A stretch of DNA of 55,324 bases from Saprospiraceae bacterium (GTDB taxonomy: Bacteria; Bacteroidota; Bacteroidia; Chitinophagales; Saprospiraceae): NCBI GenBank assembly GCA_020630775.1, contig JAHDIN010000012.1, forward strand, positions 1 through 55,324, in the 5' to 3' direction. Positions 20,214-30,544 of this stretch are shown in pieces; position 1 is the stretch's first letter; every line of letters starts with the position of its first letter. The notes under the pieces are model-generated. The model made no database searches and had not been told where the DNA came from. It saw only the letters and a list, made by a program, of their open reading frames with translations. The position numbers and the translations under genes were made by a program.

Positions 20214-20576
20214 TTATCGAAATACTTTTTTGAATTGTAGGCTTTTAGCGCCAAAATTTATAAGAAGTCCGACTGGAAGATCATATGCTACAACATAATT
20301 TTTTGCTTGAGCTAAATGCGCATCTTGTAAATTTATTACTGCTTTTAATTCTACCATTATTTTATTTTCTACAACAAAGTCTGCTCTTCTTTTACCAACA
20401 TGTATTCCATTGTAATAGATGGAATGTGATTTTTCTCTGACAAAATCTAGTCCTATTTTATTAAGCTCAATAGCAAGGCAACGTTGATAAATAACTTCTT
20501 GAAATCCATTTCCCAATGTGTTGTGAATCACCATGGCACAACCATTAATAGCATAAGTAATATCATCAAAATACAC
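20214..20576 (-). CDS. GxxExxY protein (PD-(D/E)XK-like fold)
   Basis: A 120-aa protein with the name-giving motif GFQEVIY (Gly24, Glu27, Tyr30) and the rest of the family pattern: REKSHSIYYNGIHVGKRRADFVV, MVELKAV, AQAKNYVVAYDLPVGLLINFG. The ADF and ELK residues suggest a PD-(D/E)XK nuclease-like core, but no activity has been firmly established for the family. The gene is isolated. On both sides lie short A/T-rich runs of the type AATCCT / GGATTTTAGGAT (about 20165-20180 and 20633-20660), which I associate with this gene family in Bacteroidota. It may be a dispersible cassette. Confidence 0.88.
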   Translation of the reverse strand: MYFDDITYAINGCAMVIHNTLGNGFQEVIYQRCLAIELNKIGLDFVREKSHSIYYNGIHVGKRRADFVVENKIMVELKAVINLQDAHLAQAKNYVVAYDLPVGLLINFGAKSLQFKKVFR

Positions 20577-20908: not shown

Positions 20909-22081
20909 CTAGTTCAATCTTTCAAAAATTCCTGCAATTCCTTGACCTCCTCCAACACATGCTGTTACCATACCGTATCTCTGGTCGCGTCGTCTCATTT
21001 CATTTAAAAGTTGGATTGTTAGTTTTGCTCCAGTGCAACCTAATGGATGACCTAAAGCAATGGCCCCTCCGTTGACATTAACGATATCTGGATTTAATCC
21101 TGATTCTTTTATTACCGATAAGGCTTGCGTAGCAAAAGCTTCATTTAATTCAATTTGCTCAATATCTGATAAAGATAAACCCGCTCTCTTCAGAGCTTTT
21201 GGAATAGCCACACAAGGGCCTATACCCATATAGAGAGGATCTACACCGCCCACTGTACAAGAAGTCAATCTCGCAACGGGTTCTAAGTTTAATCTCTTAA
21301 CGACATCCTCACTTACGACTAAAGTGAATGCTGCACCATCAGAAGTTTGAGATGAGTTTCCTGCGGTAACAACACCACCCATTTTGAATACGGCTCTTAA
21401 TTTAGCCAAGCCTTCAATGCTTGTGGTTCTTCTTACGCCTTCATCAGTATCAACAACATGTGAAGTCTCAACACGCTTACCATCTTTTACAAAAACATTT
21501 TCTACAGTTACTGGCACAATTTCTGATTTAAAGTGACCACCATCGATTGCAGCAGCAGCTTTTACATGAGAGTTGTAAGAAAATTCATCTGCTTGTTCTC
21601 TCGTGATTTCGTATTTCTGTGCAACAGCTTCTGCTGTATGCCCCATACTAACGTGATAGTTGATGTTTTCAACATTAGCCTTATAACTAGGCGCTAGCTT
21701 ATAACCAGTCATGGGAATCATACTCATGCTCTCTACGCCACCCGCAATATATATGTCACCATATCCTGCTTTAATTTTTCCAACCGCCAATGAGATAGCT
21801 TCTAATCCAGAAGCACAATATCTATTTATGGTCATCCCTGGTACTTCTTTCCCTAAAGCTCTAGCACCAATCAGTCTTCCAATTTGAAGTCCTTGTTCAC
21901 CTTCAGGGTTAGCGCAACCAACAATGACATCGTCAACCGTTTTAGGATCTATTTCTGGAACTTGAGACATGAGATATTTGATGACATCTACACCTAAATC
22001 GTCAGATCTATAATTTCTGAATCCACCTTTCTTGGCTTTGCCTACGGCAGATCTAAATCCTTTTATTATATATGCTTCCAT
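20909..22081 (-). CDS. fadA: Acetyl-CoA C-acyltransferase (3-ketoacyl-CoA thiolase)
   Basis: A 390-aa cytosolic thiolase catalysing the last step of beta-oxidation, cleavage of 3-ketoacyl-CoA by CoA. The nucleophilic Cys89 is in NRYCASGLEA; His345 is in GHPLGCTGA and the acid/base Cys375 in CVGGGQG. Length is typical. The gene lies four bases after the bifunctional hydratase/dehydrogenase gene in the same direction, the classical FadBA partnership. A biosynthetic acetoacetyl-CoA role is possible in principle but context favours degradation. Transcription of the pair ends at the hairpin at 20663-20707. Confidence 0.93.
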   Translation of the reverse strand: MEAYIIKGFRSAVGKAKKGGFRNYRSDDLGVDVIKYLMSQVPEIDPKTVDDVIVGCANPEGEQGLQIGRLIGARALGKEVPGMTINRYCASGLEAISLAVGKIKAGYGDIYIAGGVESMSMIPMTGYKLAPSYKANVENINYHVSMGHTAEAVAQKYEITREQADEFSYNSHVKAAAAIDGGHFKSEIVPVTVENVFVKDGKRVETSHVVDTDEGVRRTTSIEGLAKLRAVFKMGGVVTAGNSSQTSDGAAFTLVVSEDVVKRLNLEPVARLTSCTVGGVDPLYMGIGPCVAIPKALKRAGLSLSDIEQIELNEAFATQALSVIKESGLNPDIVNVNGGAIALGHPLGCTGAKLTIQLLNEMRRRDQRYGMVTACVGGGQGIAGIFERLN

Positions 22082-22085
22082 TTGT

Positions 22086-24488
22086 CTAGTTTCTTAATGG
22101 TTTATTATACATTAAAATATGTTGGATTCTATCCAATGTTTTTTGATTTCCAAGTAAGCTTAAAAATGCTTCTCTTTCAATGTCCAATAAATATTGCTCG
22201 CTTACTTTTTGAGTTCCTGTTAAATCACCTCCTGCAATGACATAGGCTACTTTCTTCGCGATTTCGACATCATAATCAGACATGTAGTTACCTAATCTGA
22301 ATTCATTAATTGCGGAGTATAAGGCTGATAGTCCTGTTCTTCCTAAAACTGTTACATCATGTCTTGGTACAGGGGGCACATAATTTTTTGCTAATTCTAA
22401 AACTTTGGCTTTTGCTGTAGCTATGTTCTTAGGTTTGTTGATGCAAACCTCATCTTTAGTAGGTAACAATAAGTTGTGCGAATAAGCTTCATTTGCTGAA
22501 GTAGCCACAGTTGCTGTTGCTATAGGCTTAAAGTGTTCTATCAAGGTAGGAATCTGGACATCCCCTTCAAAATATTTATCAGAAGCTCTTAAGGCCATCT
22601 CTTTGGTTCCACCTCCACCAGGTATCAATCCTACACCTACTTCTACCAAACCTATGTATGATTCTGCAGCGAAAACTCCAGCATCGCAATGCATAGATAA
22701 TTCACAACCTCCTCCAAAAACGTATCCTTGTGTTGCAGCAACAACTGGAATCTTAGATGTTCTGCACAACATTGTTAATTGCTGAAAGTCATTCACCATT
22801 TCATTGAGTTTGTCAAACTCTTTTTGCATGGCCATCATGCCCACTGGCATAAGATTCGCGCCGACGGTAAAGTTGGTCGCATTATTACCGATAACAAGAC
22901 CATTCCAACCTTCTTCTTCTGCCTTAACAATGGCTTCATGTAATCCTTGTCCAATACCTTCTCCGATGGCATTACTCTTGCTGGTAAACTCTAAGCACAT
23001 AACACCATCTCCAATATCATGCACCGTGCACTCGCTATTTTTAACAATAGGTGCCTTGTCTCTGATCGAATCAAGAATGATAATCCCTTCCATTCCTGGA
23101 ACAGCTTCAAAGTTCTTGGATTCTATATTGTAGTATTGCTTAACACCATTGACAAACTTGTAGAATGTATTGTGGCCGCTTGAATGCATTTCCTTAATCC
23201 ATGCAGGTACTGTTTCTCCACATTCTTCAACTAATTTAATGGCTTCATCAATGCCAAATAAATCCCAGTATTCAAATGGACCGTATTCCCACATATATCC
23301 AGCACGCATGGCGTCATCAACACTGTAGTATTGATCAGAAATTTCTGGAATTCTATTAGCTGTGTATGATAGGAGGAAACCAAAGTATTCCTTTAAGAAT
23401 TTATTCTCTTTATGCTCACCAGCTATAAGTTGCTTGATTCTCTTTTCCGCAATTTCTATTTTTTTGGCTGCACCTACTGATTCAAGCTTTGGCTTTTGTG
23501 AAGGTGCATATTCAAGTGTCTTTAGATTTAGAGCATTGATTATTTTTTTACCCTTTTCATCTTTTTTTCCAGTTTTCTCGTAAAATCCCTTTTTAGTTTT
23601 ATTACCTAACCACTTGTTCTCGACAAGGTAGGTCATATACTTTGGCGTTTCTTTGGCTTTGAAATAATCTACATGAGGATCGCCATCTACGTTATTAAGC
23701 AAAAACTCAGTTACCTTCACACCAGTATCGATACCAACTAAATCCTGAAGTCTAAAATGTCCAGTCTTTGGTCTTCCAATTAAAGGCCCGGTGATTGAAT
23801 CTACCTCTTCAATTGTTAGATCATATTTCTCTGTGAGTTCACCTAATTTAGCACCACTCATTACACCAATTCTATTGGCTATAAATCCTGGAGTGTCTTT
23901 GCAGAGTACGGTTTTCTTACCCAAATAAACATCTCCATAATGCATGAAGAAATCTATAACACTTTGATCAGAGTCTTCATGAGGAATTACCTCGAATAAA
24001 GGCATGTATCTTGGCGGATTAAAGAAGTGGGTTCCGCAAAAGTTCTTTTTGAAGTCATCGCTCCTGCCTTCAGCCAATAATTTGATTGGAATACTCGAAG
24101 TATTGGAGGTGACCAATGAACCAGGCTTTCGATACTTTTCAACTTTTTCGTAAATAGTTCTTTTGATATCGAGTTTTTCAACAACAACTTCTATGATCCA
24201 ATCGGCATCTTTTATTTTTTCAAAGTCATCTTCGAAGTTTCCGGTCTTAATTCGACCAGCAAAAGATTTGTCAAATAATGCTGCAGGCTTTGATTTGATG
24301 GCTGCTTTTAAAGCACCATTAACGATGCTGTTCCGAATGGTTGGATTCTTAGAATCCTCCTCAGACATGTTAAAAGGAGGAATGTCCAACATTAATACGT
24401 CAAGTCCGATATTTGCGAAATGACATGCTATTCCTGATCCCATAACACCAGATCCCAGGACAGCGACTTTTTGAATTCTATATTTCAT
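22086..24488 (-). CDS. fadN: Bifunctional 3-hydroxyacyl-CoA dehydrogenase/enoyl-CoA hydratase, FadN type
   Basis: An 800-aa enzyme carrying the second and third steps of beta-oxidation. The N-terminal domain is the dehydrogenase: the NAD loop VAVLGSGVMGSGIA (about 8-21), then SNTSSIP, FCGTHFFNPPRYMPLFEV with the catalytic His, and KDTPGFIANRIG. The crotonase domain is C-terminal (about 490-720), with VFGGGCELSMHCD and EVGVGLIPGGGGTKEM, both oxyanion and catalytic segments present. This dehydrogenase-first order is that of Bacillus FadN, opposite to E. coli FadB. It is followed after four bases by the thiolase. The start lies 140 bases from a divergent crotonase gene; the shared region holds a palindromic element (24538-24561). 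Confidence 0.92.
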   Translation of the reverse strand: MKYRIQKVAVLGSGVMGSGIACHFANIGLDVLMLDIPPFNMSEEDSKNPTIRNSIVNGALKAAIKSKPAALFDKSFAGRIKTGNFEDDFEKIKDADWIIEVVVEKLDIKRTIYEKVEKYRKPGSLVTSNTSSIPIKLLAEGRSDDFKKNFCGTHFFNPPRYMPLFEVIPHEDSDQSVIDFFMHYGDVYLGKKTVLCKDTPGFIANRIGVMSGAKLGELTEKYDLTIEEVDSITGPLIGRPKTGHFRLQDLVGIDTGVKVTEFLLNNVDGDPHVDYFKAKETPKYMTYLVENKWLGNKTKKGFYEKTGKKDEKGKKIINALNLKTLEYAPSQKPKLESVGAAKKIEIAEKRIKQLIAGEHKENKFLKEYFGFLLSYTANRIPEISDQYYSVDDAMRAGYMWEYGPFEYWDLFGIDEAIKLVEECGETVPAWIKEMHSSGHNTFYKFVNGVKQYYNIESKNFEAVPGMEGIIILDSIRDKAPIVKNSECTVHDIGDGVMCLEFTSKSNAIGEGIGQGLHEAIVKAEEEGWNGLVIGNNATNFTVGANLMPVGMMAMQKEFDKLNEMVNDFQQLTMLCRTSKIPVVAATQGYVFGGGCELSMHCDAGVFAAESYIGLVEVGVGLIPGGGGTKEMALRASDKYFEGDVQIPTLIEHFKPIATATVATSANEAYSHNLLLPTKDEVCINKPKNIATAKAKVLELAKNYVPPVPRHDVTVLGRTGLSALYSAINEFRLGNYMSDYDVEIAKKVAYVIAGGDLTGTQKVSEQYLLDIEREAFLSLLGNQKTLDRIQHILMYNKPLRN

Positions 24489-24537: not shown

Positions 24538-24561
24538 AAATTTAACTTAGAGTTAAAAAAA
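24538..24561 (+). promoter_or_regulatory. Candidate operator, copy 1 (palindromic core)
   Basis: Core palindrome TTTAACTTAGAGTTAAA (24541-24557): two 7-bp arms, 3-bp centre. Including flanks, 22 of 24 bases match the element upstream of etfB (30521-30544) when that is read in the etfB direction. It lies between fadN and the crotonase gene, 67 bases before the latter. A second small inverted repeat, TTGGCG-CTTCA-CGCCAA, is at about 24576-24592. Confidence 0.65.
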
Positions 24562-24628
24562 CTAAATTAAGGATATTTGGCGCTTCACGCCAATATACTT
24601 TCATATTATTGCCAAAATAATCTAAATC

Positions 24629-25435
24629 ATGTCGAATCGTATAGAATTAGAAATAAAAGATCATATCGCTCACGTCCAATTCAATCGTCCGGAAAAGATG
24701 AATGCTTTGGATTTAGATTTTTTTCATTCAATTATAGAATGTTGCGAGCAAATTGAGGCGAATACTGCTATAAGGGTTGTCGTTGTTAGCGGAAAAGGCA
24801 AGGCATTTTGTGCTGGAATAGATTTGTCAATGTTTGCTCCTGGTTCGCCAATGGATAAGCTTTCTGAAAATCTAAATGATAGAACTCATGGGATTTCAAA
24901 TATGTGGCAAAAGGCGGTTTGGGCTTGGAGAGAATTATCAGTGCCAGTCATTGCAGCGGCCCATGGGACAGTTTTTGGAGGAGGGCTCCAAATCATGCTG
25001 GCTGCAGATATTAAATATATTCATCCTGAAACTCGATTATCTATTCTAGAATCGAAATGGGGGATCATACCAGATATGGGTGGGACACAATTAATGAGAC
25101 ATAACGTAAGAGATGATATGATCAGAGAGTTAACATATACGCATAGAATTTTTACAGGCGTGGAAGCGGTTGATTACGGATTCGCTACGCATACCTCTGA
25201 GGATCCTGTTTCAGAAGCATTAAAGCTGGCAACTGAGATTTGTACTAAGAGTCCAAGTGCCATTGTTTTGGCAAAAGAATTATATAATCAAGCCCCTTAT
25301 TTGAACGAGGCGGAAGGTTTAGCGTTAGAATCTAAATTGCAACATCAACTTTTAAAGAAGCATAATCAGTTGGAATCCATTTTTTCTAATCTTCAGAAAA
25401 GGGAAGCCAATTTTAAAGATTATAGAAAATCATAA
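24629..25435 (+). CDS. Enoyl-CoA hydratase/isomerase (crotonase) family protein
   Basis: A 268-aa cytosolic crotonase. The oxyanion-hole segments are GKAFCAGIDLSMF (about 56-68) and GTVFGGGLQIMLAADI (about 112-127). The active-site block reads ILESKWGIIPDMGGTQ: the Glu of ESKWG and the Asp of PDMGG occupy positions that in dienoyl-CoA isomerase (ECH1) are both acidic, whereas true hydratases have Gly or Pro at the second site. It may therefore isomerise double bonds of unsaturated acyl-CoAs rather than hydrate them. It is two bases upstream of tesB and divergent from fadN. Family certain, reaction tentative. Confidence 0.88.
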   Translation: MSNRIELEIKDHIAHVQFNRPEKMNALDLDFFHSIIECCEQIEANTAIRVVVVSGKGKAFCAGIDLSMFAPGSPMDKLSENLNDRTHGISNMWQKAVWAWRELSVPVIAAAHGTVFGGGLQIMLAADIKYIHPETRLSILESKWGIIPDMGGTQLMRHNVRDDMIRELTYTHRIFTGVEAVDYGFATHTSEDPVSEALKLATEICTKSPSAIVLAKELYNQAPYLNEAEGLALESKLQHQLLKKHNQLESIFSNLQKREANFKDYRKS

Positions 25436-25437
25436 AT

Positions 25438-26304
25438 ATGAAATCAGCCTCGGAGCTTATAGATTTATTGACACTTGAAAGGATAGAAGACAAAATATTT
25501 AGGGGTCAAAATTATGTTACACCTTGGAAGAGGATTTTTGGAGGTCAAGTTTTGGCTCAATCTTTATCTGCGGCTTATCAAACAGTTCCGGAAGATCGGT
25601 TCGTCCACTCTATGCATGGCTACTTTATTTTAACTGGTGATGTAAATGTGCCAGTCATATATTCTGTAGAGACGATTAGAGATGGTGGAAGTTTTACGAC
25701 AAGAAGAGTGACAGCTATTCAAAAGGGTAGACCCATTTTTGTAATGGCTTGTTCTTTCCAACTAAAACAGGAAGGCTTTGATCATCAAAATGAAATGCCT
25801 GATGTAGATGGTCCTGAAGGTCTTTTAACTGATATAGAACAAGGTGAACAAATTCAAAAATTTATGCCTGATGTAGCAAAGAAAATCTTTGCAAGAAAAC
25901 AAGGTGCTTTAGAATTTAGGCCTGTAGAAAAAACAGTCTTTGAAAATGCATTTGCAGGAAAGAAGCACCGACATGTTTGGATGAAATTAAAATCGGAAGA
26001 AAAATTGTCAATTGCGCAACAGCATGTATTATTGGCCTATGCCTCAGATTATGATTTGTTGCTGACCTCTGTTTATCCCCACCATTCAAAAGTCAATGTT
26101 AATGAATTATTTATTGCAAGTTTGGATCATGCGATGTGGTTTCATCGAGATTTAGACTTTACAGATTGGATGCTGTATTCAATTGACAGTCCTTCTGCTT
26201 CTAACTCAAGAGGAATGGGCTATGGGCGTATTTTTGATAGGCAAGGCAGGTTGGTTTCCACAGTTATGCAGGAAGGATTAATTCGAAATAGTCGAAAGGT
26301 TTAA
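25438..26304 (+). CDS. tesB: Acyl-CoA thioesterase II
   Basis: A 288-aa double-hotdog thioesterase that releases CoA from acyl-CoAs. The N-terminal hotdog has RIFGGQVLAQSL and VHSMHGYFILTGD; the C-terminal half has LAYASDYDLLLTSV with the catalytic Asp, SLDHAMWFHRD, and RQGRLVSTVMQEGLIR with the catalytic Gln, matching E. coli TesB. It starts two bases after the crotonase stop, so both are expressed together, opposite to the main fatty-acid operon but from the same control region. It may protect against CoA trapping when oxidation stalls. Its stop overlaps the stop of a convergent small gene by four bases. Confidence 0.93.
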   Translation: MKSASELIDLLTLERIEDKIFRGQNYVTPWKRIFGGQVLAQSLSAAYQTVPEDRFVHSMHGYFILTGDVNVPVIYSVETIRDGGSFTTRRVTAIQKGRPIFVMACSFQLKQEGFDHQNEMPDVDGPEGLLTDIEQGEQIQKFMPDVAKKIFARKQGALEFRPVEKTVFENAFAGKKHRHVWMKLKSEEKLSIAQQHVLLAYASDYDLLLTSVYPHHSKVNVNELFIASLDHAMWFHRDLDFTDWMLYSIDSPSASNSRGMGYGRIFDRQGRLVSTVMQEGLIRNSRKV

Positions 26305-28748: not shown

Positions 28749-29708
28749 TTAAGCTTTCGCTTTTTTAATAGCTTCTGTCAATTTAGGTACAACATCAAAA
28801 AGGTCTGCACATACACCATAGTCAGCGGCTTTAAAAAATGGTGCTTCAGGATCTTTGTTGATGACAACAATACATTTACTTTGGTTAACACCAGCTAAAT
28901 GTTGAATAGCTCCCGAGATACCTGCAGCGATGTATAAGTTAGGTCTGATAGCGACACCAGTCTGACCTACATGCTCATGGTGCGGTCTCCAACCTGTATC
29001 TGCTACAGGTCTTGAGCAAGCAGTAGTAGCACCAATAATATTAGCTAGGTCTTCTATGATACCCCAGTTTTCAGGCCCCTTCATTCCTCTTCCAGCGCTC
29101 ACTACAAGCTCTGCTTCAGGTAAAGGCGCAGGTCCACCAGTTTGTTTATCTTGAGAAATAACTTTTGATTTAGGCGCTGAGACATCTACGCTCACAGCTT
29201 CAACCTCACAAGGGGAGCCTATGGTTTCTGGTTTCAAAGAATTACCTGTAACAGATATAACTTTCTTTTCTCCAGTTAATGTCATTTCAGAAATAGCTTT
29301 ACCAGAAAAGATGTTCTTCTTAATCCTAAGGTTAGAACCATCTAAAGTAGGCAGTGCATTGGCTCCAGAAACGCAAGCAGCGTCTAGCCTTGCTGCTAAT
29401 CTACCAGTCAATGCCATTCCAGAAGCATTATTGCTTAAAATGATGGTTGAAGCACCTTTATCATTTGCAACGCCAGAGATCGCTTGTGTGTATGTTTGAC
29501 TATCGAAACTGTTTAAGTTGTCGTTAGATAATTGATATACTTTCGTGGCGCCATAGTTTCCTAATTCACCAGCATTATCAGCAGCTCCAATGACTAAAGC
29601 ATGGCATTCTGATCCAAGTAAGTCAGCAGTTTTTCTGCCGTATGTCACAGCTTCTAAAGCTGCTTTTTTGAATTTTCCGTCTGAATTTTCTACAAATACT
29701 AAAACCAT
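28749..29708 (-). CDS. etfA: Electron transfer flavoprotein alpha subunit
   Basis: A 319-aa flavoprotein subunit that, with EtfB, passes electrons from acyl-CoA dehydrogenases to the quinone pool. The C-terminal FAD-binding domain is clear: SAGRGMKGPENWGIIEDLA (about 202-220), SRPVADTGW, HEHVGQTGVAIRPNLYIAAGISGAIQH and VINKDPEAPFFKAADYG. Length is standard. It lies 11 bases after etfB. No acyl-CoA dehydrogenase or ETF:quinone oxidoreductase is in this window, so the electron donor and acceptor are encoded elsewhere. Confidence 0.95.
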   Translation of the reverse strand: MVLVFVENSDGKFKKAALEAVTYGRKTADLLGSECHALVIGAADNAGELGNYGATKVYQLSNDNLNSFDSQTYTQAISGVANDKGASTIILSNNASGMALTGRLAARLDAACVSGANALPTLDGSNLRIKKNIFSGKAISEMTLTGEKKVISVTGNSLKPETIGSPCEVEAVSVDVSAPKSKVISQDKQTGGPAPLPEAELVVSAGRGMKGPENWGIIEDLANIIGATTACSRPVADTGWRPHHEHVGQTGVAIRPNLYIAAGISGAIQHLAGVNQSKCIVVINKDPEAPFFKAADYGVCADLFDVVPKLTEAIKKAKA

Positions 29709-29719
29709 AATTTTTGCTT

Positions 29720-30460
29720 TTAAAGTACTTTAGCTTCTTCTTGAAGCAATCTAACTAATTCATCCATATTTTCTGGGTCAATCATTTTAACCTCACTCTT
29801 TCCAGAAGGTAAGGCATACCCTGAAATTTGAGTTTTTGCATCATTAACATCAGAGCTAACGACATTCAAAGGTTTTCTTTTTGATTGCATGATTCCACGC
29901 ATGTTAGGAATACGTTGTTCAGCCAATCCTTTGGCTGCTGACAATACAAATGGTGTCTGTACTTCTACCGTTTCAGAACCACCTTCTATATCTCTTTTAA
30001 TCGTAGCAGTTTGTCCATCAACTTTCATATCGGTAGCCAAAGCGACAAATGGTAGATCTAATAATTCTGCTAACATTGCTGGGACTTGCGAACCATTGTA
30101 ATCGATAGATTCTTTGCCACAATAAATGATATCATATCCAGCCTCTTTAACGTTATTAGCTATTGACTTAGCCACGCCTAATGCGTTTGATGGATCAGCA
30201 TCTACTCTAATCGCATCATCTGCGCCAATGGCTAATGCTTTTCTAATAACCACATCGTTAGAGGCATCGCCAACATTGATAACTGTAACCGTTCCGCCAA
30301 CTGCTTCTTTTAATTCTATTGCTCTCACTAAGGCATACCACTCATCATAAGGATTAAGTATATAATTGACTCCATTAGAATCAATTTGAGAACCATCACC
30401 AGTCAATTTGATCTGGGTAGTAGTTTCGGGAGTTTTGCTTAAGCAAACCAATTGCTTCAT
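29720..30460 (-). CDS. etfB: Electron transfer flavoprotein beta subunit
   Basis: A 246-aa partner of EtfA that binds AMP and contacts the dehydrogenase. Visible features are NPYDEWYALVRAIELKE, the adenine-nucleotide region VINVGDASNDVVIRKALAIGADDAIRVD and DIIYCGKESIDYNGSQVPAMLAELLDLP, then the recognition-loop area PFVLSAAKGLAEQRIPNMRG near residues 175-195. It is the first gene of etfB-etfA-TonB receptor. The leader holds an exact TAnnTTTG -7 box (30477-30484) and, further up, a near copy of the element found between the fad genes (30521-30544). Confidence 0.95.
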   Translation of the reverse strand: MKQLVCLSKTPETTTQIKLTGDGSQIDSNGVNYILNPYDEWYALVRAIELKEAVGGTVTVINVGDASNDVVIRKALAIGADDAIRVDADPSNALGVAKSIANNVKEAGYDIIYCGKESIDYNGSQVPAMLAELLDLPFVALATDMKVDGQTATIKRDIEGGSETVEVQTPFVLSAAKGLAEQRIPNMRGIMQSKRKPLNVVSSDVNDAKTQISGYALPSGKSEVKMIDPENMDELVRLLQEEAKVL

Positions 30461-30476: not shown

Positions 30477-30484
30477 CAAATGTA
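30477..30484 (-). promoter_or_regulatory. -7 promoter box of etfB
   Basis: On the minus strand TACATTTG, an exact TAnnTTTG, lies 16 bases upstream of the etfB ATG. No clear -33 TTTG is at the usual spacing, so activation through the upstream palindromic element is plausible. Confidence 0.6.
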
Positions 30485-30520: not shown

Positions 30521-30544
30521 TTTTTTTAACTCTGAGTTTAATTT
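30521..30544 (-). promoter_or_regulatory. Candidate operator, copy 2 (palindromic core)
   Basis: Plus-strand core TTTAACTCTGAGTTTAA (30525-30541). Read in the etfB direction, 22 of 24 bases equal the element at 24538-24561, including a 13-base identical block AGAGTTAAAAAAA. It ends 60 bases before the etfB ATG; copy 1 ends 67 bases before the crotonase ATG. The A-run rather than T-run after the stem in the direction of transcription argues against a terminator of the upstream gene. Confidence 0.65.

Follow-up and report, generated by a model that had tools for sequence, protein, structure and literature searches.

Predicted operators of a FadR-like TetR-family regulator at beta-oxidation and electron transfer flavoprotein genes of Saprospiraceae

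Introduction

In Bacillus, FadR (YsiA) is an acyl-CoA-responsive member of the TetR family whose beta-oxidation targets include etf and whose operator, TGAATGANTANTCATTCA, is unlike the one described below. Saprospiraceae, the family considered here, occur commonly both in activated sludge and in the sea. For Thermus thermophilus, FadR (TTHA0101) is described as a TetR-family repressor of fatty-acid degradation with the operator TTRNACYNRGTNYAA, e.g., TTGGACTTAGTCCAA (PMC5597230), and the FadR of Sulfolobus acidocaldarius as a TetR repressor of beta-oxidation genes that is released by acyl-CoA (PMC6449355). In Proteobacteria, PsrA and FadP are TetR-family regulators of scattered beta-oxidation operons, and non-orthologous fatty-acid regulators replace one another between lineages (PMC5343134). 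The latter study covers Proteobacteria, and the word Bacteroidetes is absent from it; our own literature search turned up no description of the operator reported here, nor of any beta-oxidation regulator in Bacteroidota.

Here, we analyze a stretch of 55,324 nucleotides from a Saprospiraceae bacterium (assembly GCA_020630775.1, contig JAHDIN010000012.1; "the window") that carries two near-identical palindromic elements next to fatty-acid genes. We read both as predicted operators of a TetR-family dimer acting as a lineage-specific, FadR-like regulator of beta-oxidation, and give this reading a probability of about 0.84. The candidate regulator resembles Thermus FadR in being a predicted TetR dimer with a fatty-acid degradation regulon, in the half-site TTxxACT (TTRNACY in Thermus, TTTAACT here; PMC5597230), and in a fold match to 3anp (E = 4.8e-6), whereas the half-sites are 1 bp apart in the 15-mer of Thermus and 3 bp apart in the 17-mer here, identity in the fold alignment is 18%, and Thermus belongs to another phylum. 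The Thermus operator type itself (15 bp, 1-bp spacer) was rejected for our sites, as the pattern that we searched has a 3-bp spacer and AACT-N3-AGTT came first among dyads of free spacer. Bacillus FadR shares the beta-oxidation targets and the fold (3whb, E = 3.4e-6, TM-score 0.75 by target length), and PsrA and FadP share the family and the scattered operons. However, a Bacillus-type FadR or a PsrA was rejected as identity of the protein, which scores 36.8 bits against a cut-off of 200 with the NCBIfam FadR model (NF053878) and 23.3 bits against a cut-off of 300 with the PsrA model (NF053516); none of the NCBIfam models run against the first member of our alignment reached its cut-off. Sulfolobus FadR, alike in function, is archaeal, and its four sites control one 30-kb gene cluster (PMC6449355) in place of the scattered operons seen here.

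Taken together, the TetR domain and fold, the failed FadR and PsrA cut-offs, the half-site likeness with its spacer difference, and the known replacement of regulators between lineages place the protein with the TetR regulators of beta-oxidation, and the feature that marks the FadR-like functional class, i.e., predicted operators before several beta-oxidation operons, is present. A FadR-like regulator new for the Saprospiraceae lineage is the best reading of these comparisons. It yields an operator, a regulator family, a list of target genes, and a helix–operator pairing, all directly testable, and would make the regulon predictable in uncultured members from sequence alone.

Results and discussion

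Two near-identical palindromes in the window

A first-pass annotation of the window had pointed to a 24-bp element at 24,538–24,561 that returns as its reverse complement at 30,521–30,544. All of its figures agreed on recomputation: 22 of the 24 bases are equal, including a 13-base identical block, and the element lies 67 bases from the ATG of a crotonase gene (24,629) and 60 bases from that of etfB (30,460). The 7-3-7 palindromic arms that it proposed are exact in the first element (TTTAACT-TAG-AGTTAAA), with one arm mismatch in the etfB copy (TTTAACT-CTG-AGTTTAA). Since the first element is also upstream of the divergent fadN, it sits between two divergent operons, fadN-thiolase and crotonase-tesB (Table 1). 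The 17-bp sites score 25.6 and 25.5 bits, respectively, with the site matrix described below, and the first scores 25.0 bits with a held-out matrix. Two further features were noted in the surroundings: a perfect 6-bp inverted repeat (TTGGCG-CTTCA-CGCCAA, 24,577–24,593) between operator 1 and the crotonase start, and a gene for a PDDEXK_3 protein of 120 aa (20,214–20,576) that adjoins the thiolase gene.

Table 1 Predicted operators and neighboring genes in the window
Feature	Position	Strand	Remarks
Thiolase	20909..22081	-	Pfam Thiolase_N/C; ORF coordinates; starts 4 bases after fadN, probably in one operon with it
fadN, 3-hydroxyacyl-CoA dehydrogenase with enoyl-CoA hydratase domain	22086..24488	-	Pfam 3HCDH_N, 3HCDH, ECH_1
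Operator 1 (predicted), TTTAACTTAGAGTTAAA	24541..24557	.	Between divergent fadN (52 bp) and crotonase (71 bp)
Crotonase (enoyl-CoA hydratase/isomerase)	24629..25435	+	Pfam ECH_1
tesB, acyl-CoA thioesterase	25438..26304	+	Pfam Acyl_CoA_thio, 4HBT_3; 2 bases after crotonase
etfA, electron transfer flavoprotein alpha subunit	28749..29708	-	Pfam ETF, ETF_alpha; probably in one operon with etfB
etfB, electron transfer flavoprotein beta subunit	29720..30460	-	Pfam ETF
Putative -7 box, TACATTTG	30477..30484	-	Weak match to TAnnTTTG, located between etfB and operator 2; TTG absent at -33 spacing
Operator 2 (predicted), TTTAACTCTGAGTTTAA on the + strand	30525..30541	.	64 bp upstream of etfB(-etfA)

The palindrome recurs at orthologous genes across the family

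A strict match to the palindrome was found in 46 of 199 family genomes, at 75 places in total. One of these (genome G064, locus L022) is found 36 bp ahead of a gene for a TetR-family protein, and it was through this site that the candidate regulator, hereafter TetR, was first found. Orthologues of TetR occur in 54 of the 199 family genomes at E < 1e-45, and presence was scored for these 54 and for 7 further congeners; G129, in which TetR is cut short by the end of a contig (59% identity over 90 residues), and G160 (E = 1.5e-28) were counted as lacking it.

Gene context was read for the 58 places with the centre YNR, 46 of them in TetR-bearing genomes (n = 25), 10 in TetR-lacking genomes (n = 9), and 2 in the genome of the window, with targets assigned by Pfam and some named from sequence alone. 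In the TetR-bearing genomes, 28 of the 46 TTWAACTYNRAGTTWAA palindromes immediately precede genes for acyl-CoA dehydrogenase, fadN, crotonase, or etfB. Nine others precede other lipid-related genes or TetR itself (TetR, an Fe-S electron-transfer protein, two thioesterase-like proteins, a short-chain dehydrogenase, two FabH-like synthases, an acyl carrier protein, and a fatty-acid hydroxylase), and the remaining 9 of 46 lie at unrelated places. None of the 10 palindromes in TetR-lacking genomes stands before such genes (Fisher 7e-4 vs 28/46), the context of one of them being half seen as its locus (L030) ends 52 bases past the site. Both palindromes of the window's own genome are at beta-oxidation or etfB genes, and a further etfB site with another centre occurs in G002 (L035). 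The site is flanked on both sides by five bases that are almost exclusively A or T.

As far as sequence comparison tells, genes for fadN, acyl-CoA dehydrogenase, crotonase, and etfB are repeatedly preceded by the 17-bp palindrome TTTAACTYNRAGTTAAA. The first-pass annotation had named random scatter through the genome, or a lack of conservation upstream of orthologous genes, as outcomes that would speak against its proposal; neither is what the relatives display, as the element returns at these genes and its presence follows one TetR-family protein. Its suggestion of a regulon joining beta-oxidation to its electron carrier gains support from the same recurrence, which includes both the enzymes and etfB.

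Identity and distribution of the TetR protein

By domain and fold, the latter taken from a predicted model, the protein belongs to the TetR family. TetR_N (PF00440) scores 56.8 bits against a cut-off of 24, and the AlphaFold2 model (pLDDT 88.9) is all-helical, with an N-terminal helix-turn-helix and a C-terminal ligand domain. A fold search returned 310 PDB matches at E ≤ 0.001, and the 50 of these that were listed are TetR-type as far as their titles tell. The FadR proteins of Bacillus and Thermus are among the best matches; DarR ranks higher, and a fold match to FadR is common to many TetR proteins. Across an alignment of 21 TetR rows, the stretch ITKVTLY in the recognition helix is invariant.

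The distribution of the protein is narrow in the collections searched. Among 298 genomes of the order, all 19 matches at E 1e-40 or better fall in the same family, the share of other families among the 298 not being shown. In a collection of named records, with 80 of 525 loci listed, 57 matches had at least 49% identity over at least 90 residues, and among the matches listed all 57 are labeled Saprospiraceae, Saprospirales, Lewinellaceae, Chitinophagales, Aureispira, or just Bacteroidetes/Bacteroidota. The other records among the matches listed reach 26–35% over at least 90 residues, or up to 51% over short helix-turn-helix stretches.

Site position and direction of control

In 41 target genes, the site lies 9–152 bp from the presumed start codon, a range at odds with one fixed promoter position, which we rejected. 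The -7 box of Bacteroidota has the consensus TAnnTTTG, and this box was detected in 24 of 47 target regions, against a mean of 6.9 in shuffles; in 10 regions it is formed by the site itself (offset -6), and 16 of 47 remain when those boxes are left out. In 11 regions, 8 of them upstream of etfB, the box starts 14–27 bp after the site centre (21–27 bp for the eight etfB promoters), which would place the site over the -33 region. Such a spread around the promoter and downstream of it, with the site of 9 of 41 targets within 20 bp of the start codon, suits a repressor.

In the mechanism that we favor, a TetR dimer would repress its targets by occupying the core promoter or the stretch just after it, site position being the one observation that speaks for repression. 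An acyl-CoA or another fatty-acid signal may release the dimer, by analogy with the FadR proteins of Bacillus, Thermus, and Sulfolobus and given a fold match that is common to many TetR proteins. Release would then induce the divergent fadN-thiolase and crotonase-tesB operons and etfBA together, i.e., the pathway along with its electron carrier. In the window, the repression step is less clear, since 49 bp separate the centre of the etfB site from the start of the TACATTTG box downstream of it and no TAnnTTTG box was found in the fadN and crotonase promoters.

That 49-bp distance is an activator-like place, and the regulator could instead be an activator, or act both ways, using sites upstream of the -33 region. 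Most -7 boxes were found without TTG at the tested spacings, and sites also occur before FabH-like, acyl carrier protein, and fatty-acid hydroxylase genes, both of which would fit activation. However, the sites no more than 20 bp from a presumed start codon leave little promoter room downstream, and the TetR regulators of beta-oxidation in Sulfolobus and Thermus are described as repressors (PMC6449355, PMC5597230). We thus regard an activating or dual role as rather unlikely and retain repression by a TetR dimer as the preferred reading.

Autoregulation as a general rule was rejected, as TetR genes seldom carry their own site. Among 30 TetR genes, only those of G064 and G157 reach 12 bits, in a scan where 14 of 73 rows were without a start or had a short upstream part, and sites of at least 12 bits within 50 bp before the TetR gene were seen in 4 of 55 named loci (L240, L241, L242, and L284).

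The site follows the TetR protein across genomes

In these genome comparisons, presence of the palindrome follows presence of one TetR protein. With the window's own genome left out, a palindrome with the centre YNR occurs in 25 of 54 TetR-bearing and 9 of 144 TetR-lacking family genomes (P = 5e-10). At fadN, a site of at least 6 bits within 260 bp upstream was detected in 33 of 43 genomes with TetR and 1 of 65 without (Fisher 9e-18), a contrast that omits 2 of 111 genomes for a short upstream region; in the other 10 of the 43, fadN is not preceded by such a site. Because the 37 sites of the matrix had been chosen for lying before lipid genes or TetR, its scores at those genes are partly circular, and the contrast was repeated in three other ways: with a held-out matrix of 21 sites, none of them in front of fadN, etfB, or crotonase, with congeners giving no matrix site, and with plain dyads. 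The held-out matrix returned 34/43 with TetR vs 1/65 without, compared to 6/43 and 7/65 for a reversed-matrix control and means of 3.0 and 2.6 for 200 column-shuffled palindromic matrices. These controls also answer the difference in G + C content of the fadN upstream regions (29% with TetR, 35% without). In a motif-free search of 3840 dyads, AACT-N3-AGTT separated the two groups best (16/40 vs 0/26).

The same pattern was observed within the genus, where the fadN site is present in 6/6 genomes with TetR and 0/4 without (p = 0.005; G205 is just over the threshold at 6.3 bits), and the etfB site in 3/7 and 0/5, respectively. Of the congeners in which TetR is lacking or was not found, G206 and G208 are 82% and 87% complete and could merely miss the gene; G032 and G204 are 96–98% complete. 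We counted 14 changes of the TetR label along the FadN tree, compared with 13 of the site label. Six supported independent pairs, an underpowered set, gave on average 3.6 differences in the same way, 0 in the opposite way, and 2.4 without a difference (median p = 0.125); in an earlier tree-pair run, 24 of 76 rows had fallen out.

Operator sequence varies with the recognition helix

In some TetR orthologues, the recognition helix reads SKGxxYFYF instead of TKVTLYSYF. We scanned 260 bp upstream of fadN and etfB for AACT-N3-AGTT and for GACT-N3-AGTC or a hybrid, and the operator sequence was seen to follow the recognition helix of the encoded protein in this comparison. Counting related genomes more than once, the AACT type was found in 30 of 63 regions of TKVTLY-type genomes and the GACT type or hybrid in none of 63, while SKG-type genomes displayed 0 of 19 and 8 of 19, respectively (Fisher between helix types, 2e-8). 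Genomes without TetR had the AACT type in 0 of 92 regions and the GACT type or hybrid in 1 of 92 (G043), both regions of the window's own genome are of the AACT type, and two SKVT-helix genomes (G014 and G121) had no site in their four regions. The SKG group is split over two or more parts of the FadN tree, with G038 apart from G080, G088, G112, and G189. A first count had dropped 14 of 147 rows and assumed the helix type of G052, G077, G198, and G130; in the final count given here, the former three were read as TKVTLY, G130 (a truncated gene) was set apart unread, 40 TetR-lacking fadN regions were added, and no rows were dropped.

We regard this covariation as the strongest sign that TetR would be the protein that reads the element. 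The first-pass annotation had proposed a dimeric reader of TetR or MarR type, and between the two a TetR reader is favored by the co-occurrence, the strict site before the TetR gene of G064, and the helix–operator covariation. The same results bear on whether the operator, while still belonging to a fatty-acid regulon, is read by another protein (another TetR, a MarR, or a Crp-type regulator) that shares the species distribution of TetR. Such a reader would fit the observation that the TetR gene is rarely beside the regulated genes and usually without a site of its own. Yet it would have to account for operator sequences that change together with the helix of this TetR, for site and TetR going together in presence and absence within a genus, and for the strict site 36 bp before this very gene. 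We consider it unlikely, and hold to the TetR protein as the predicted reader.

Two single loci were noted in this context. In G043 (L402), a genome that yielded no TetR of either helix type, the GACT-type TTTGACTTTAAGTCAAA stands 153 bp ahead of fadN; this site may be a relic, point to a missed gene, or serve another reader. In G037 (L377), two SKG-type TetR genes are neighbors, with ATTGACTAGGAGTCAAA 94 bp upstream of a TetR start.

Frequency and regulator in the genome of the window

The window's own assembly comprises 3,096,451 bases in 84 contigs and is 53.9% complete. A genome-wide scan with the strict pattern TTWAACTNNNAGTTWAA returned exactly two places, both of them the window sites. 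A reversed control pattern likewise gave two places, and with one mismatch allowed the pattern occurred at 14 places vs 44 for the control. As judged from translated neighbors, none of the other 12 one-mismatch places in this assembly precedes a recognizable beta-oxidation gene; one (C61) is directly before a gpsA-like gene. We thus rejected the count in this genome as evidence, there being no excess over the reversed control, and the case rests on position and conservation instead. Although the own-genome counts are equal and the control count exceeds that of the pattern in many family genomes, the chance that the two elements are merely accidental AT-rich palindromes is negligible given the conservation data, the return of the element at orthologous genes, and every contrast linked to TetR.

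The first-pass annotation had remarked that no such regulator gene, of TetR or MarR type, is in the window, and in agreement with this no orthologue of TetR was detected there, nor in the assembled contigs, with a congener protein, the 21-row profile, or an SKG-type protein as queries. The best matches in the assembly are at the helix-turn-helix level only (E = 3e-7 by sequence, 6e-13 by profile), so that operator and regulator are not seen together in one genome here. Because the assembly is 54% complete and 8 of the 13 other members of the genus carry a TetR orthologue, the gene is predicted to lie in the missing part of the genome. There, the organism would encode a TetR of the TKVTLY type, a step that forms the weakest link for the window.

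Targets beyond beta-oxidation

More tentatively, TetR could be a general regulator of lipid balance, acting on beta-oxidation, ETF, and the Fe-S electron-transfer protein as well as on synthesis genes (FabH-like, acyl carrier protein, fatty-acid hydroxylase) and perhaps on a small TPR protein; as yet encountered only in Saprospiraceae and their close relatives, it would offer, in its two natural helix types (TKVTLY and SKG) and the operators that match them, a ready-made series of specificity switches. This wider role is possible but doubtful on the present data. In five etfB regions of relatives (L111, L113, L123, L124, and L129), a gene for a small TPR-like protein (~105–109 aa; Pfam TPR in L113) is divergent from etfB, with the operator in between, and the window has an FMN reductase gene at that place. 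A photolyase-like gene follows the etfB-TPR region of L129 (G147), and in G064 a strict operator (L108, 1505–1521) is located 91 bp before a DNA photolyase gene.
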